A stretch of 34,454 nt of DNA from a virus, in the IMG/VR virus record IMGVR_UViG_3300030107_002858, positions 1 to 34,454 of that record. The stretch is one strand, 5' to 3'. Of the stretch, positions 24,186 to 31,445 are shown piece by piece (the first letter of the stretch is position 1; every line of letters begins with the position of its first letter). The notes beneath the pieces were generated by a model. That model was given only the letters and a program-made list of their open reading frames with translations. It searched no databases and was not told where the DNA came from. The translations under genes were made by a program, and so were the position numbers.

Positions 24186-25529
24186 TTAATACAGCCTAAT
24201 ACCTGTTCCTTTTCCTGCGTTTAAATGAAGTGGGTTAAATAATCGCCAAGTAATATATCCGATAGCGTCATTCATGTGGTCATAGCCAGCATCTTTGTCT
24301 GGTTCACCTTTTTCGGTATAAGACTGAAGTTCTAAACATTCAATCAATCTCTTAGCTTTTTTATTAATTTTTAAACGGACAAGACCTTTTCCATCTTCCA
24401 ATAATCGCTGAACTGAGTTCACTCGATCTCTTACTGGAGGATTTGAAGCTGGGGATTCATTTTGAAATCCGTAACTTTGCAGTATTTGGATGTCGGTCTT
24501 AGAAGCGTTTGTACTTCTGTTTCCTCCTGACGCATCAGGATAAGCATAGATCTTTTGATGTGGGTATCTTCGTTTGATTTCCTGTGCCAAAGAATCTGTG
24601 TCATGTGATCCACTCACCTCGTCAATAACTAAAAGTTCATCTCCCAAAGCGACTGCTATCACCGCACTCATATTCCCAATATTGAAGTCGATTCCTATCC
24701 TGAGTGGTTCTTCACGGAAATCACGGTCATCATGGACAACATGGACTTCTCTGGAAAATCGGTCATAAACCTGACCTGTGGTGATATTGCAGAACTCTCC
24801 ATTCAGATAAGCCTGAAGTAATCCAGAGTCATAGTTTTCTTCGAGTCTCGTGATGAAATCCGCTGGTAGATGTGGGTTGTCATAAGAACGCATCTTGATG
24901 AGTTTTCTATCCGTTCTTTGTTTTGCCTCATCTGTTCCGAACGTGTTCCACATCCAACGAAATCCTTCAGGTGTAGAAGCAACTCCAAACTGTCTTTGAT
25001 TTCCAGATCTCAAACGAGCAAGGATTCTGGGGAAAGCTCGATCTGCTATTGATGGAGATACTGTGTCTATCTCATCAGCCAATACCCAAGCAAGGTTCAG
25101 ACCAATTATTCGACCCCAGTTCTCAAATGATCGGCAAAGAATCTTTGTTTCTCCATTTGGAAGATGGAGAATATATTCAGGGAGTGGAGACTGTCTTGAG
25201 GTGTATGGAATTTCATACTTCTCAAGGAACATTTCAAAGTCCGTCTGCCAGATGTCTCGAATTAATGGACCTGTTGGTTCCATGACGCAGCCAGTAAATC
25301 CTTGATTTGCAATAGCAAGTTGCACTGCTTTCGCACATAAACTTCTAGTCTTGCCTGCTCCGTAACCAGCCGAAAGTCCAATAATCTGAGTCGTTGTATC
25401 TTCAACAAAAGACAGTTGCCCCGGATGTAGATCGGCTTGAATCTTTTGGAAAATATCGTCAGCGTTTAGAGAATCGCTTGAAGAAAGATTTGAAAGGATT
25501 GTGCCTTCCTTCGTGTCTAATATACTCAC
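24186..25529 (-). CDS. terL: Terminase large subunit
   Basis: A 447-residue packaging motor. The ATPase half has Walker A at residues 53-61 (SAGYGAGKT), Walker B with catalytic acid at 147-155 (AWVLADEID) and a coupling-type motif GVASTPEGF near 182-190. The RNase H-like nuclease half has candidate metal ligands D281 (RIGIDFNIG), D332 (YPDASGG) and D421 (YDHMNDAIGY). All appear intact. The GTG start overlaps the small-subunit stop as GTGA. It pumps DNA into the procapsid and cuts it. The packaging strategy (cos or headful) cannot be told from this sequence. Confidence 0.95.
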   Translation of the reverse strand: MSILDTKEGTILSNLSSSDSLNADDIFQKIQADLHPGQLSFVEDTTTQIIGLSAGYGAGKTRSLCAKAVQLAIANQGFTGCVMEPTGPLIRDIWQTDFEMFLEKYEIPYTSRQSPLPEYILHLPNGETKILCRSFENWGRIIGLNLAWVLADEIDTVSPSIADRAFPRILARLRSGNQRQFGVASTPEGFRWMWNTFGTDEAKQRTDRKLIKMRSYDNPHLPADFITRLEENYDSGLLQAYLNGEFCNITTGQVYDRFSREVHVVHDDRDFREEPLRIGIDFNIGNMSAVIAVALGDELLVIDEVSGSHDTDSLAQEIKRRYPHQKIYAYPDASGGNRSTNASKTDIQILQSYGFQNESPASNPPVRDRVNSVQRLLEDGKGLVRLKINKKAKRLIECLELQSYTEKGEPDKDAGYDHMNDAIGYITWRLFNPLHLNAGKGTGIRLY

Positions 25530-25852
25530 GATTCAAAGATTCCTGCAATTTTTGCCATTGAATTAATGGCACCTAGAGCAACATGAGGCTGATTATTTCG
25601 TCTTGCATCTTGAGCTAACGTTGATAATTGTGATAAAACATCAGCAGTAAATTGCCTGCGGTCTATGTCCCAATCAACTGCTATCACTTGGTTTGCTTGG
25701 GATATGTACTCATCAACTTGTCTAGGTTTCACCCCCCACTCTCTTACACCATAAGCAACAATCTCAGAACGACTAGCGTTTCTGGCTTTGAGTGCAGCGA
25801 CTTTACGAACACGCCACTCAACCTCTTTTTTTGTTGAGCGTTTAGCTGGCAT
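25526..25852 (-). CDS. terS: Terminase small subunit-like protein
   Basis: A 108-residue protein. A basic N-terminal helix (PAKRSTKKEVEWRVRKVAAL) precedes a helix-turn-helix-like region at about 25-55 (ASRSEIVAYGVREWGVKPRQ, VDEYISQANQ), then an oligomerisation helix (FTADVLSQLSTLAQDARRNN) and the end HVALGAINSMAKIAGIFES, which closely follows the terminal pattern of many small terminase subunits. It overlaps TerL by four bases and shares one base with the glycosyltransferase stop. It should recognise the packaging site on phage DNA. Confidence 0.83.
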   Translation of the reverse strand: MPAKRSTKKEVEWRVRKVAALKARNASRSEIVAYGVREWGVKPRQVDEYISQANQVIAVDWDIDRRQFTADVLSQLSTLAQDARRNNQPHVALGAINSMAKIAGIFES

Positions 25853-26679
25853 TAGGAACAGTCCTTAAGTTCAAATTTAAAACTCTTGGGAACGTAATCA
25901 GGATCTTTCTTAAGCGGTATGTCTTTAAACATAGTCCAATTATTTTTAATATGAAAATGAGGCCTCCCGTATTTGTTTACTAATTCAACAATACCCGGCC
26001 ACTTTGCTTGAAGTGTTCTTGAACCATAAGCACGAGAATCTAAGTTTTGATAAACAGTAGAGTTTCCACCTTTGACGCTCATAGTAAGCATCTTTTCTTG
26101 AGTAATAAAAGTCGTCCCGATAGTGCAAAGTTTATGAGAAAGAGTTTGCAGACATAAATCAACATCTTCATTCCATGGACCTCTCCAAGTGAACGGTAAG
26201 TCGTTGGATAAATTCATGCAGGAGTAGACATGAATATTTTTTCGGTAAGGAACGTTGCAGATACGACCATTGCACTGCCAAGAATAATACGGACCATATA
26301 TTCCAACATTTGTCCATTGGTCGCAAAACTCCTCACACATTCTTATCCCCAGACCCGGTTCTATCTTTCTTCTTATCTTCCCGTTGAAATGACAAAAGAA
26401 TCTGATATTGTCATCCATCTGCCAGTGTCTTTTATGACCTTGAGCTTTTGAGTGCTCATGTATAAAAACACGAGGAGGAAAAGACGTACCGTTATTTAAG
26501 AACGGCAGCTTAAGCATATATTGTTCAAACCCAGCTTTGAGATATAGCTCCCACTGAGACTCATCTACGACAAGATAAAATGGAATACCCCTTTCTTTAA
26601 AATGTTTCGGGAGATGATTTGAATCGGATCTTCCATGAGAAGGAATATAAATCGGATATTTAGGTAAGATTTTATCCAC
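25852..26679 (-). CDS. TAGT-like (TET-associated) glycosyltransferase
   Basis: From a GTG at 26679 this is 275 residues. In-frame ATGs at 26715 and 26733 exist but would overlap the radical SAM gene by 44 or 62 bases and lie before the domain start. The family signature is clear: YPIYIPSHGRSDSN (9-21), IPFYLVVDESQWELYLKAGF (32-51), HKRHWQMDDNIRFF (82-95) with the DD nucleotide-sugar/metal motif at 89-90, and GPWNEDVDLCLQTL (167-180) with E171/D172. YGRPHFHIKNNW lies near the C-terminus. TAGTs were defined beside TET/JBP dioxygenases and predicted to glycosylate oxidised pyrimidines in phage DNA. No TET gene is in this window, so the acceptor is unknown. Coupled to the packaging genes. Confidence 0.82.
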   Translation of the reverse strand: MDKILPKYPIYIPSHGRSDSNHLPKHFKERGIPFYLVVDESQWELYLKAGFEQYMLKLPFLNNGTSFPPRVFIHEHSKAQGHKRHWQMDDNIRFFCHFNGKIRRKIEPGLGIRMCEEFCDQWTNVGIYGPYYSWQCNGRICNVPYRKNIHVYSCMNLSNDLPFTWRGPWNEDVDLCLQTLSHKLCTIGTTFITQEKMLTMSVKGGNSTVYQNLDSRAYGSRTLQAKWPGIVELVNKYGRPHFHIKNNWTMFKDIPLKKDPDYVPKSFKFELKDCS

Positions 26680-27637
26680 AGTTATGAAGGCAGTTACGAC
26701 AGGCAGGAATCTCATCCCACTTATCTTCGGCATGAGCTGCTCGCAGCTTTTGCATAGAGGGAGCCGACCATGCCTCTTTTAAAGACATAGTTGAAACGTT
26801 TCCAATTACTAATTGTTTGCCGTATAGCTTACAGCAGGGGAGAATATCTCCTTCGCTATCTACTACTAGCTGTTTATTGGGAAAACTGCAAGGGGAAGGT
26901 CTTTCGTTGCTTACAAGAGTTAACCCAGTATCTTTCCCCGGAACTTCATTCATCGTCTGAAAAGTTATTACGTCCACTATGTCTTTCCATTGCTTTTCAA
27001 ATAAATCGGCCTCATGGATATTGATTTTATTTTTAAGAAAACTAACCCTCACTTTTGGAAATGTGAGGCCTAGTTGGTTTCGCTCGAGAACTAAAGACTT
27101 AACGTTCTCAACCACTTTTTTATATAGACCGTTCCTTCTTTGTTTGGAATAAGTTTCCTCTGTAGCTGCGTCAATACTGCAAAAGATTTTAGTAACTCCT
27201 GAATGAAGTAATTTCGTTCTTCGATCTTTAGTTAAAAGTGATCCGTTGGTAACAAAGTAAACGTTGAGAATCCCTTTGCTTTTAGCGTACTCAATCGCTT
27301 CCTCTAAGTCTTTCCTTAACAGTGGCTCATTAATGTAGTTCAATTTTATTGAGCGAGTCCCCAAAGAAGAAGCCTCGTCAATTAAAGATTTGTACTTTGA
27401 TAATTCCAAACTTTCTCGAATCCTGCCTCCTCCACTGCCATGAATACAAAACGGACAAGCCATATTGCAAGAACCGTTTAGTTCAAAATCAACCTGAACA
27501 GGAGCATCAGGAATTTTCTGAAACGATTCAGCATCTTTTTGGTCGTTTATGTAGTCATCCCAAGCGATTGGATCTGATTCAGGCGGCTTTTCGTAAAGAG
27601 CCTGAACGTTTTTTATATCAAAGAAGGAATCACTCAC
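26672..27637 (-). CDS. Radical SAM enzyme with SPASM-like C-terminus
   Basis: A 321-residue enzyme. The GTG start overlaps the ParB-like stop by 8 bases. The radical SAM [4Fe-4S] motif CxxxCxxC is C57/C61/C64 (GSCNMACPFC). Core TIM-barrel features follow: SIKLNYINEPLLRKDLEEAI (glycine-poor SAM-binding strand), NVYFVTNGSLLT, IFCSIDAATEETYSK. The C-terminal cysteines at 250, 268, 269, 313, 316 and 320 (SPCSFPNK, DILPCCKLYG, CRNCLHNCG) fit an auxiliary Fe-S (SPASM/twitch) domain, as in many modifying enzymes. The substrate is unknown. Genetic coupling to the TAGT gene suggests base or sugar modification. Peptide modification is an alternative, but no precursor-like peptide is adjacent. Confidence 0.86.
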   Translation of the reverse strand: MSDSFFDIKNVQALYEKPPESDPIAWDDYINDQKDAESFQKIPDAPVQVDFELNGSCNMACPFCIHGSGGGRIRESLELSKYKSLIDEASSLGTRSIKLNYINEPLLRKDLEEAIEYAKSKGILNVYFVTNGSLLTKDRRTKLLHSGVTKIFCSIDAATEETYSKQRRNGLYKKVVENVKSLVLERNQLGLTFPKVRVSFLKNKINIHEADLFEKQWKDIVDVITFQTMNEVPGKDTGLTLVSNERPSPCSFPNKQLVVDSEGDILPCCKLYGKQLVIGNVSTMSLKEAWSAPSMQKLRAAHAEDKWDEIPACRNCLHNCG

Positions 27638-28664
27638 TTTCTGTTAGTTGATATTCGAGATGGGCATGTTTTTCTTTTTCTTTAAAAGGCCACCAGATAA
27701 ATTTAGTTTTTTCAGTTAGTTGGGCTCCTATTGTTTTAGCAAAATCTTGCCTATCATTCTCTGTCTCAAAGTTTATTACAAGTTTTATCGCAGGCTTCAA
27801 CGGATCAAAGTCTAAGTAATCCCCCCAACCACCTTCATCTTTAACCGCATTCAACTCAGCTTTAGATCTTGAAACCAATAATAAGTTCTCTAACTTTTGT
27901 TTGTCATATCCAGTTCCTAATAAGTCGTCTTCCACTAAAAGCTCCTTTAATATCTCACTCATTTCTCGCATATTGCTTTCAGCTAAATGTGAGACTTCAT
28001 TATCTGCGGTGAGAAGTTTTAACGCTTTCGGATGATTTGGTGAGAGGTTCGTCCTCAATATTGGAACAGAAGATAAACCTAAAGAGATCGCAGCCTCAAC
28101 AACTCCATGTCCTGCAAGAATCGTATAATCATTAGCAACTAAAATATTCCTGTAAATACCATTCTCTTCTATTGATTTCTTTAGATGTTCTAACTGTTCT
28201 GGAGGATGTGACTTGTAGTTTCTTGGGTGTGGTTTTATTTTATCAATAGCAATCTGTTGTGCTTTTGTTTCTAAAAAGGTTGTCTGATCGAGTAAAGAAT
28301 TAAGCTCCAAACCAGCGTCAAAGCCTTGAAGTTCGTTTAATTCATGTAGCAAATTATCTTGATCCCATTCGGATTGTTCTGATATTTTATTATCTGCAAT
28401 TATATATGCTTTCTTTTCTTCACTTGAAAGATTGCTAACAACTCTGACAGGAACTTTTTCTAAACCTAATATCTTTGCTGCTTCGTAGCGACCATGTCCT
28501 GCAAGGATTGTGAACTTGTCAGTACAAACAATAGGTTGAGTAAAACCAAACTTTTCAATTGACGCAGCGAGGGCTTTTACCTGATGGTCAGGGTGCTTTC
28601 GAGAATTGTATTTATAAGGCTTCAATGAAGAGATGAGGATTTCTTCAGATTGAACCAAAGACAT
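27630..28664 (-). CDS. Tandem ParB/Srx-domain protein
   Basis: A 344-residue protein with two ParB-like N-terminal domains. The first (about 5-115) has LKPYKYNSRKHPDHQVKALA and AGHGRYEAAKILGLEKVPV (55-73), ending AYIIADNKI. The second (about 136-230) repeats the plan: IKPHPRNYKSHPPEQLEHLK, AGHGVVEAAISLGLSSVPI (184-202) and KLLTADNEV. The second copy loses the Arg after HG. A C-terminal domain (290-332: KPAIKLVINFETENDR, then TKFIWWPFKEKEK) is like that of phage ParB-like proteins near methylases and terminases. ParB domains bind or hydrolyse CTP, and some phage forms are nucleases. It opens the late operon divergently from the early arm. Confidence 0.85.
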   Translation of the reverse strand: MSLVQSEEILISSLKPYKYNSRKHPDHQVKALAASIEKFGFTQPIVCTDKFTILAGHGRYEAAKILGLEKVPVRVVSNLSSEEKKAYIIADNKISEQSEWDQDNLLHELNELQGFDAGLELNSLLDQTTFLETKAQQIAIDKIKPHPRNYKSHPPEQLEHLKKSIEENGIYRNILVANDYTILAGHGVVEAAISLGLSSVPILRTNLSPNHPKALKLLTADNEVSHLAESNMREMSEILKELLVEDDLLGTGYDKQKLENLLLVSRSKAELNAVKDEGGWGDYLDFDPLKPAIKLVINFETENDRQDFAKTIGAQLTEKTKFIWWPFKEKEKHAHLEYQLTESE

Positions 28665-28970: not shown

Positions 28971-29327
28971 ATGCGTTGCCCAGAATGCGGTAAAAAATCT
29001 CTTCATTGCTCTTCAGTCAAAGAAACAAGAACAGATGAAAAAGGATTCACAGTAAGACGTAGGAGAGAATGTATCTTCTGCAAACACAGATGGACAACTT
29101 TTGAAAGAGCAGAAGAATTTAGTTTTCTTGAACGCAGAAGAAAACTAAGCAATCATCAAATCAGAGCTATTTACGACTCAAAAGATATATTCTGCTCCCA
29201 CGAATTAGCATCTTTATTTGGTATTCACGTTTCAACTGTTCGAGATATAAAGAGACCATCAGACACTTATAAAAAAATTATTAACGCTACGAATCCCATT
29301 ACTTTTTTTGAAAACTATGGATCTTAA
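28971..29327 (+). CDS. NrdR-like zinc-ribbon protein with HTH-like C-terminus
   Basis: A 118-residue protein. Residues 1-48 match the zinc ribbon of the ribonucleotide reductase repressor Nrd[11 protein letters not shown] (C3, C6), [20 protein letters not shown] (C34, C37). NrdR continues with an ATP-cone, but this protein has a helix-turn-helix-like region instead: [34 protein letters not shown], where the pattern suggests site-specific DNA binding. It ends [11 protein letters not shown]. It may recognise NrdR-box-like DNA or act as a general phage regulator. It starts two bases after the previous gene and overlaps the next. Confidence 0.78.
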
Positions 29328-29679: not shown

Positions 29680-30597
29680 ATGACTCAATTAACAAAAGCT
29701 GACCACAAATTATTCAGAGGTACAGCAGCCGAAGTTCACTCTTGGATGAGTAACAAAGACATCTTGAAATCTATCGGATGTGACTTTGAAGTGGAACGTG
29801 TTCCGCATCATTACAAAGCTATTACTTTCCCTGAAGTTCAACTTTGGCATAGGTCTGACAACCAAGGATTATTGGGAGTTTTCGGTTCAAGAAGACAATG
29901 TATCCAGCCTGAAACTTTCATTCAGTACTTCAGAGATTTCTGTGATGCGAGTCAAAAAGAAATCAATCTCGATCTTGTTGGTTCTCTTGATGGTGGAAAA
30001 ACTTTCTACATGGCATCAAAACTTACCAACAATCAAAACACTGAACTTGAAAATGTTGGAGACAAAACTGATAGTTGGTTAGTCGTAACTGATTACTACG
30101 GAGAATCAAGAGCTCCTAAAGTAATGGTTCTTTTTAACGAACTTGTCTGCACCAACGGAATGACAAAACAAATCAGTCAACGCTTCAGAGCTTTTTCACA
30201 CTTAAAAGAAATGAAGTTTGATGATGTTGCTCCTGTTCTTGAATCTGCTTTAACTCAATCAAAAGTTTATTCAGATGTAAAGGACAAGTTGATTCATACA
30301 CCTATCTCAATGGATTCTGCAAAGGAAGCACTTCGTACCTTCTTTAATGATCCATCAGGTGACTCCTCAAAAGTAAAAATCCTTGAAGACATCTATCAAA
30401 ATAAATTGATTGGTGGCGAATTGGAAACCAGAAATGGAACTGCTTGGGGTTTGATGTCTGCGGCGACTCAACACAGCAGCCACAGTCGTGCTGGAAACGG
30501 TGAAAGAACTCTACGATCACAACTTGATGGGAGCAGAGGTTATTTCAACACTCGCTTTATGAATTTCCTTGAATCTCAATTCTTGGTGACAGCTTAA
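29680..30597 (+). CDS. DUF932 (phage/plasmid-like) protein
   Basis: A 305-residue protein starting MTQLTKADHKLFRGTAAEVH. Core segments GLLGVFGSRRQCIQPETFIQ, LDLVGSLDGGKTFYMASKLT, SWLVVTDYYGESRAPKVMVL and FNELVCTNGMTKQISQRFRA follow the DUF932/TIGR03299 layout. The 'g~~~~~y~~iqp.~~~~~~~~l' opening and 'aGsl.~G~~~w~~~~l' equivalent are present, with the 'vCtNGm' block following. A C-terminal part contains NGTAWGLMSAATQHSSHSRA. DUF932 is common in phages and plasmids near replication and recombination genes, but its biochemical activity is not established. It has its own promoter, and its stop overlaps the methyltransferase start by one base. Confidence 0.85.
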   Translation: MTQLTKADHKLFRGTAAEVHSWMSNKDILKSIGCDFEVERVPHHYKAITFPEVQLWHRSDNQGLLGVFGSRRQCIQPETFIQYFRDFCDASQKEINLDLVGSLDGGKTFYMASKLTNNQNTELENVGDKTDSWLVVTDYYGESRAPKVMVLFNELVCTNGMTKQISQRFRAFSHLKEMKFDDVAPVLESALTQSKVYSDVKDKLIHTPISMDSAKEALRTFFNDPSGDSSKVKILEDIYQNKLIGGELETRNGTAWGLMSAATQHSSHSRAGNGERTLRSQLDGSRGYFNTRFMNFLESQFLVTA

Positions 30598-31445
30598 TGA
30601 ATATCAAAACGATCAACGACCTAACGGCTCTTCCAAGCCGTTCAGGTCTTGGTTATTTTTGTTATTTATTAGATCAATCAGGAATTACTGAATCTAACAA
30701 GATAACAAATGTAGCCCACCACACTATGGCTTTGTTGAAGTCTCAAGGAAAGAAAGGACTCAAGGCACATCGAGACTTAATTGAATTAGAAGAACGTTGG
30801 TACCAGTCTTTAAGAATAAAAAAACAACCTGATTACTCAGTTTATAATGAAAAGATATACCTAGCAGAAGTCTGGTGCTGTTGGGACTTTTACGCTAAAA
30901 AATATATTAAAGACATTCTGACTCCTAAACTTGTACCTGAAAAAGGAATAAAACAATATATAGATAGAATGGGTGTTATTTTAGACTTAGGAAATGGTAT
31001 TGGATTCTCAACAGCTGCCTTTAAACAACATTTTCCAAAGCATCTAGTAATAGGAACTAACGTTCAAGATTCTTATCAATGGACTTTAAACGTTTTACTA
31101 TCTAAAAATTATAATTATGAATTACTGGACCCAGACGCTTTAGAAAAGAACAGAATTTATCCAGTTGAGTTAACTTTTGCAAGTGAATATTTTGAGCATT
31201 TTGAGAAACCAGTAGAACATTTATCTTATATATTGGAGAAAAGTAAAACGAAAATCTTAGTTGCAGCAAACGCTTTTGGAGCAGATAGCTGCGGACATTT
31301 TGATTCATATATCCACAAAGGTAAGTCATACGACTCCAAAGCGATAGGACGCATCTTTGGGAAAGAATTAAAAGAAAATGGATACAGGAAAATTAAAACA
31401 AAGCTTTGGAACTCAAGACCTTCAATATGGATAAAGGATGGTTGA
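30597..31445 (+). CDS. SAM-dependent methyltransferase-like protein
   Basis: A 282-residue protein. A helical N-terminal domain (about 1-120: LPSRSGLGYFCYLLDQSG, LAEVWCCWDFYAKKYIKDIL) precedes a class I Rossmann methyltransferase core. Motif I is VILDLGNGIGFSTA (127-140), an acidic/positioned strand follows near VIGTNVQD (151-158), and a motif IV-like FASEYFEHFEKPVEHL (194-209) resembles the 'evlEHl' block. The end includes SCGHFDSYIHKGKSYDSKAI. It lacks the PCQ or DPPY motifs of DNA cytosine or adenine methyltransferases, so the substrate is unknown: small molecule, nucleotide, RNA or a modified base. Its stop lies four bases beyond the next promoter's first base. Confidence 0.76.
   Translation: MNIKTINDLTALPSRSGLGYFCYLLDQSGITESNKITNVAHHTMALLKSQGKKGLKAHRDLIELEERWYQSLRIKKQPDYSVYNEKIYLAEVWCCWDFYAKKYIKDILTPKLVPEKGIKQYIDRMGVILDLGNGIGFSTAAFKQHFPKHLVIGTNVQDSYQWTLNVLLSKNYNYELLDPDALEKNRIYPVELTFASEYFEHFEKPVEHLSYILEKSKTKILVAANAFGADSCGHFDSYIHKGKSYDSKAIGRIFGKELKENGYRKIKTKLWNSRPSIWIKDG

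Follow-up and report, generated by a model that had tools for sequence, protein, structure and literature searches.

The window analysed here is the whole 34,454-base IMG/VR virus record IMGVR_UViG_3300030107_002858, a lambda-like tailed phage genome whose tail, head and packaging genes lie on the minus strand. On this strand, three genes run head to tail into the terminase genes; they encode a tandem ParB-like protein of 344 residues (27630-28664), a radical S-adenosylmethionine (SAM) enzyme of 321 residues (26672-27637) and a TAGT glycosyltransferase (25852-26679). This cassette is followed on the same strand by a small open reading frame in the position of a terminase small subunit (putative TerS, 25526-25852) and by the gene of the terminase large subunit (TerL, 24186-25529; Pfam Terminase_6N/6C, PHROG 2). 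An initial reading made from the DNA letters alone, called below the sequence-only reading, had described overlaps of 8, 8, 1 and 4 bases between successive genes, and the gene coordinates bear this out. The first ATG of the TAGT gene (26733) would overlap the radical SAM gene by 62 bases, against 8 bases for the GTG codon at 26679; the latter is the right start, since in relative L005 the gene starts at the corresponding codon and also shows an 8-base overlap. The naming of the two terminase genes held for TerL, whereas TerS is assigned by position only: a Pfam scan of its product gave no match, its PHROG (34910) is of unknown function, and it is the next gene after TAGT that is conserved in lineage I. 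A terminase gene comes after the cassette in several lineages. The sequence-only reading had suggested that modification may be timed to packaging; this placement is conserved, but so is much phage gene order.

The three protein families had been correctly named and all pass their Pfam cut-offs. The ParB-like protein matches PF02195 over two stretches (E=2e-19), giving ParB_N domains at residues 7-119 (about 28308-28646) and 137-224 (about 27993-28256), plus a small C-terminal domain. It matches PHROG 620 (E=1.8e-77) and also methyltransferase-associated forms (PHROG 498 DNA methyltransferase, 2.3e-67; PADLOC MTase_II, 4.7e-41). The glycosyltransferase covers positions 1-203 of the 205 of PF20691 (E=1e-25, 91.3 bits for a cut-off of 27.5) and matches PHROG 842, beta-glucosyl-HMC-alpha-glucosyltransferase (2.6e-29). 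Residues R35, Y64, R88, D107, D108, D190, G222 and G223 are invariant in 25 sequences, the conserved DD pair being encoded at 26410-26415. Its AlphaFold2 model (mean predicted local distance difference test score, pLDDT, 86.9) has a GT-A fold and its top structural matches are GT-A enzymes. The radical SAM enzyme matches Radical_SAM PF04055 (3.6e-14) and SPASM PF13186 (1.1e-14). It carries a CxxxCxxC motif formed by C57, C61 and C64 (27446-27469) and one SPASM/twitch auxiliary-cluster domain (26690-26890) with C250, C268, C313 and C316; these seven cysteines are invariant in 34 sequences.

In order to determine how widely the three genes are associated, IMG/VR was scanned with the radical SAM protein, which yielded 33 loci, and with a profile, which yielded 62. 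The pooled 64 viral loci form 29 clusters at 90% identity. Among the 15 with at least 2 kb of sequence on each side, 12 have ParB as well as TAGT genes, as detected by profile, next to the radical SAM gene, and in a thirteenth the TAGT is fused to a methyltransferase (650 residues, TAGT E=2e-31). At least three gene orders were observed (ParB-radical SAM-TAGT, ParB-TAGT-radical SAM and radical SAM-ParB-TAGT), with a methyltransferase gene inserted or fused in several cases. The two commonest orders require 6 and 5 changes on the radical SAM tree, throughout which linkage was kept. Linkage maintained despite reshuffling points to a joint function and is a strong sign that the three genes form one functional module. 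Comparison of the window with relative L003 gave ratios of nonsynonymous to synonymous substitution rates (dN/dS) of 0.02-0.03 for the radical SAM gene, 0.04-0.08 for TAGT and 0.03-0.06 for ParB, indicating strongly purifying selection. That the three genes belong together, as first proposed, is thus sustained by their clustering in dozens of viral contigs and by dN/dS values of 0.02-0.08. When cultured phages were searched for this gene, only two weak metagenomic records came back for the radical SAM enzyme, so there is no isolate to name as a carrier.

Related radical SAM genes were also seen in other settings. In L104 (1332-6966, plus strand), a 51% identical gene comes after an AMP-binding enzyme and two more SPASM radical SAM genes, with neither ParB nor TAGT. 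In L105 (5950-7191, plus strand), a protein of the same family carries a C-terminally fused Acb2/Tad1 hairpin (PF24729, E=3.8e-12), a domain that elsewhere occurs in anti-CBASS and anti-Thoeris proteins; a ParB gene directly follows the fusion, with no TAGT nearby.

The best profile match of the radical SAM enzyme in the PDB is BtrN (E=1e-20), followed by MoaA, with BlsE lower in the list. BtrN oxidises an alcohol of a cyclitol, and BlsE is a cytosylglucuronate decarboxylase that acts on a sugar nucleoside. The auxiliary cysteines of BtrN (C169, C187, C232 and C235) align with C250, C268, C313 and C316 of the phage enzyme, and the AlphaFold2 model (pLDDT 91.5) shows a typical SPASM/twitch fold. 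Its closest cellular relatives, 33-42% identical, come from Aenigmatarchaeota, Pelagibacter-type bacteria, Rickettsiales and Prochlorococcus, where they lie within surface-glycan clusters that comprise glycosyltransferases, DegT, a sugar transferase and UDP-GlcNAc 2-epimerase. Phage and cellular enzymes share 35 invariant columns, including K98, an NYINEP motif, R167, N206, F213 and W217. In all five cellular genomes with upstream sequence, the gene directly before that of the radical SAM enzyme is a homologue of glucose-1-phosphate cytidylyltransferase. Scored against TIGR02623 (cut-off 300), this homologue reaches 379 bits in L107 and stays under the cut-off in L110 (243) and L111 (231); in L109 its frame is broken. 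A radical SAM gene is likewise listed beside rfbF on a Brachyspira plasmid (PMC4267127), a likeness that comes from the listing and not from sequence comparison. Kinship with BtrN, relatives in glycan clusters and sugar-enzyme neighbourhoods together make the phage protein look like a sugar-tailoring enzyme rather than a base oxidase.

To place the cassette among other TAGT loci, we scanned with a TAGT profile, which found at least 595 relatives, and examined 75 of the best loci outside the cassette; one had a radical SAM match. A combined TAGT alignment proved too diverse for a degenerate scan. Among these best 75 of at least 595 loci, 66 have a ParB gene on the strand of TAGT and no more than 300 bases away from it, and 23 have an SDR (short-chain dehydrogenase/reductase), a UDP-glucose dehydrogenase or a phosphomannomutase, with several of these genes overlapping TAGT. 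ParB-TAGT modules hence repeatedly recruit sugar-tailoring enzymes, a slot that the radical SAM enzyme fits. Indeed, in L100 a ParB, a radical SAM enzyme, a methyltransferase, a TAGT and an SDR are encoded in this order in one operon. By Fisher test, sugar enzymes are rarer beside the radical SAM cassette than beside other TAGT genes (p=0.003); we set this result aside because the records are related, their flanks are unequal and L100 has both. GalE is encoded in three longer relatives of 37-41 kb (G001, G003 and G004; 381-383 bits for a cut-off of 262), and the cassette of G001 is 97-99% identical to that of the window. Two TAGT genes stand in tandem beside ParB in L016 (734-2520), L050 (9995-12112) and L054 (1545-3192), all on the plus strand, which suggests that two sugars are added in turn there.

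A class I SAM methyltransferase of small-molecule type is encoded on the plus strand of the window (30597-31445), in a divergent operon. It is 42% identical (E=2e-56) to a methyltransferase lying within the cassette of L081. Members of the same family are fused to TAGT in L083, adjoin ParB or TAGT in L018-L020, L023, L025, L082, L100 and L161, and in L161 adjoin both TAGT and an SDR. Their Pfam matches are to general small-molecule-type methyltransferase domains and not to DNA methylases. Judged from this sequence kinship, the window methyltransferase is probably a fourth cassette component. The sequence-only reading, which had bounded the cassette at 25852-28664, thus contained its three genes and left out a likely fourth.

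Taken together, we favour, with about even confidence, the view that these genes constitute a phage glycosylation cassette, probably for DNA, in which a radical SAM enzyme akin to BtrN reworks the sugar. DNA appears the most likely target from the kinship of TAGT with the T-even enzyme through which DNA receives a second glucose (PMC13216743), and from a ParB type that is otherwise fused to DNA modifiers or adjoins them, ParBc proteins often being found with the DNA carboxymethyltransferase CmoX (PMC12783734). Phage G026 likewise has a ParB gene ahead of a QueC/FolE group. With a nucleotide sugar as donor, TAGT would glycosylate either a hydroxylated base or a sugar that this base already bears, and the ParB-like protein would probably govern access to DNA or the choice of sites. 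The radical SAM enzyme would most likely tailor the sugar by C-H oxidation or epimerisation, either on the nucleotide sugar, ahead of transfer, or once the sugar is linked to DNA. Methylation by the optional methyltransferase would probably also fall on the sugar, and in the longer relatives GalE may supply or interconvert the donor. The finished modification might protect phage DNA from restriction and CRISPR. The proposal of a DNA hypermodification cassette is therefore supported as to DNA as the probable target, and not supported as to base chemistry by the radical SAM enzyme.

Several observations weigh against this interpretation. A fold search places the RiPP (ribosomally synthesised and post-translationally modified peptide) maturases SkfB and SuiB level with BlsE, BtrN and MoaA at Z scores of 20-23, and with these about tied, the fold alone leaves the substrate of the radical SAM enzyme unsettled. 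Structural comparison, which the sequence-only reading had proposed as a check, thus gave a GT-A fold for TAGT and a tie for the radical SAM enzyme. Sugar nucleotidylyltransferases (PF00483) are represented in 28 phage records by one weak partial match, in G029. These phages lack the cytidylyltransferase of the cellular clusters, and their sugar nucleotide would consequently differ. GalE is absent from the shorter window record and was not found in the other long phage records examined that carry the radical SAM gene. Searches in these phages found no enzyme that makes a hydroxylated base, leaving the acceptor unexplained, and the best structural matches of TAGT in VIA-align are polypeptide GalNAc-transferases (Z about 14).

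The missing acceptor enzyme bears on another possibility, namely that the radical SAM enzyme itself creates the acceptor of TAGT, for example by O2-free oxidation of the thymine methyl group or of cytosine C5, and so replaces TET/JBP. We searched the cassette records for alternative sources of a hydroxylated base, whose chemistry had been reported as not visible in the window. Consistent with that report, no thymidylate-synthase-type hydroxymethylase was detected in any of 28 cassette records (the control matched in 9 genomes), and no C5 methylase in the same 28 with a working control. Three longer relatives also lack a deoxycytidine monophosphate (dCMP) hydroxymethylase, the window record itself being possibly incomplete, and neither a TET nor a hydroxymethylase nor a C5 methylase appeared when 45 and 63 proteins of long relatives were scanned with Pfam. 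No TET/JBP was found in 26 cassette and 40 other TAGT records, which may be incomplete; this absence rests on Pfam scans, as the PF12851 control over 289 alphaproteobacterial genomes gave one sub-threshold match only. These negatives would suit an acceptor-making role, as would the conservation of the radical SAM enzyme, which is the highest in a cassette whose TAGT diverges to 15-19% identity. However, the 40 TAGT records outside the cassette are equally poor in such enzymes, with no thymidylate synthase, no TET and two C5 methylases over the cut-off. Since ParB-TAGT phages without the radical SAM gene also lack an acceptor enzyme, its absence does not argue for an acceptor-making role of the radical SAM enzyme. 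The cellular relatives in sugar clusters and BtrN as closest solved sequence relative also speak for sugar tailoring. We therefore consider the acceptor-making role that the sequence-only reading had put forward rather unlikely, and slightly less likely still the complete scheme in which an O2-independent enzyme standing in for TET/JBP places a hydroxyl on a DNA base or nucleotide, TAGT glycosylates it and ParB picks the sites. Nor does the lack of a TET gene, found unusual at first, set this cassette apart: none was seen in 66 TAGT-region records, with the control giving no match over threshold, and TAGT is solitary in 288 of 753 phages carrying these glycosyltransferases (PMC13216743). Krischvirus SAP offers a precedent, with glucosylated cytosines and no known acceptor genes (PMC13390438).

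The target might instead be a molecule other than DNA, either a structural or packaging protein of the phage or a glycan on the host surface, which would receive the sugar tailored by the radical SAM enzyme. The GalNAc-transferase matches, the location of the genes ahead of packaging and head genes, the service of the cellular relatives in surface-glycan synthesis and the lack of a visible base-acceptor enzyme are all compatible with this. However, similar scores are reached by GT-A enzymes of many specificities, DNA is the substrate of the biochemically known TAGT (PMC13216743), ParB adjoins TAGT in most of the best loci outside the cassette, and the ParB type of the window goes with DNA modifiers (PMC12783734); we regard a non-DNA target as possible but doubtful. 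It is highly improbable, in our view, that the modification marks DNA for packaging, for instance at a pac site, rather than protecting it. Several lineages do have TerS/TerL or another terminase directly after the cassette in spite of reshuffling within it, and Vibrio phage 1.076.O has its TAGT between genes for the portal and for head morphogenesis; however, in Vibrio phage henriette 12B8 TAGT is far from packaging genes, among those for replication, several of the best 75 of at least 595 loci have it close to DNA polymerase B, and conserved position may reflect common descent. That the radical SAM enzyme is a peptide maturase, or a nucleotide enzyme like viperin, unconnected to the TAGT product would agree with a PADLOC pVip match (E=6.6e-15) and with the RiPP maturases among the top structural neighbours. 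The enzyme nonetheless has an auxiliary-cluster domain, which to our knowledge viperins do not have, its constant partners are ParB and TAGT, and it scores far below the cut-offs of NCBIfam maturase and viperin models, which makes this explanation extremely improbable.

The glycosylation of DNA with a tailored sugar, which we favour, was compared with known systems. The T-even TAGT (T6 beta-glucosyl-HMC-alpha-glucosyltransferase) is a phage glycosyltransferase of the same Pfam family, with the same GT-A fold and conserved acidic motif. Its acceptor, alpha-glucosylated 5-hydroxymethylcytosine, is produced by a dCMP hydroxymethylase and an alpha-glucosyltransferase, neither of which was found in the cassette phages, and we know of no radical SAM or ParB partner in the T-even operon. 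A TET/JBP-TAGT pathway was reportedly predicted for phages by Iyer, Aravind and colleagues. Like the cassette, it combines TAGT with accessory genes in phages; in contrast, no TET/JBP was found here, and in its place stands a radical SAM enzyme of sugar-cluster kinship that need not fill the TET role. BtrN, the 2-deoxy-scyllo-inosamine dehydrogenase of butirosin synthesis, has one auxiliary [4Fe-4S] cluster held by the same four cysteines; it is about 20% identical to the phage enzyme, has a free aminocyclitol as its substrate, in the making of an antibiotic, and has no TAGT or ParB partners. The arabinosylation cluster of Mosigvirus resembles the cassette in placing a DNA glycosyltransferase beside special-sugar genes; unlike in the cassette, the acceptor comes from a thymidylate-synthase-type 5-hodCMP synthase, and the sugar enzymes are an isomerase, an epimerase, a kinase and an NTP-transferase, with no radical SAM enzyme (PMC13390438). 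The CmoA-CmoX-CmoY module for 5-carboxymethylcytosine is, like the cassette, a phage DNA hypermodification module often found with ParBc, but it works by carboxymethyl transfer and amide ligation, with no TAGT or radical SAM enzyme (PMC12783734). Searches of an open-access library found no paper in which a radical SAM enzyme takes part in glycosylating phage DNA.

Glycosylating their DNA is a main way in which phages are shielded from restriction and CRISPR, and for most solitary TAGTs no chemistry is known. The cassette could thus be a new way to hide viral DNA from bacterial defences: a widespread module of uncultured phages, in the concrete form of a four-gene set, in which a radical enzyme seems to remodel the sugar, with methylation in some cases. 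Sister modules use epimerases, dehydrogenases or phosphomannomutases, which suggests a general plan of a ParB and TAGT core with a variable sugar-tailoring partner.

Other genes were noticed near the cassette and in one of its carriers. On the plus strand of the window, positions 28971-29327 encode a small protein that has a zinc ribbon of NrdR type (PF22811, 5.9e-12) followed by a weak helix-turn-helix-like match only, and positions 29680-30597 encode a DUF932 protein that is conserved nearby in several lineages with the cassette. Phage G026, which bears a ParB-TAGT-radical SAM cassette, also contains a row of genes (L214, 16076-19200, plus strand) for a ParB, a DpdA-like protein, QueC, a small protein and GTP cyclohydrolase I (FolE). 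The second of these, which we take to be DpdA-like from its LLDSGAF motif, has no Pfam match. This row probably serves 7-deazaguanine modification of DNA and includes a ParB of its own.

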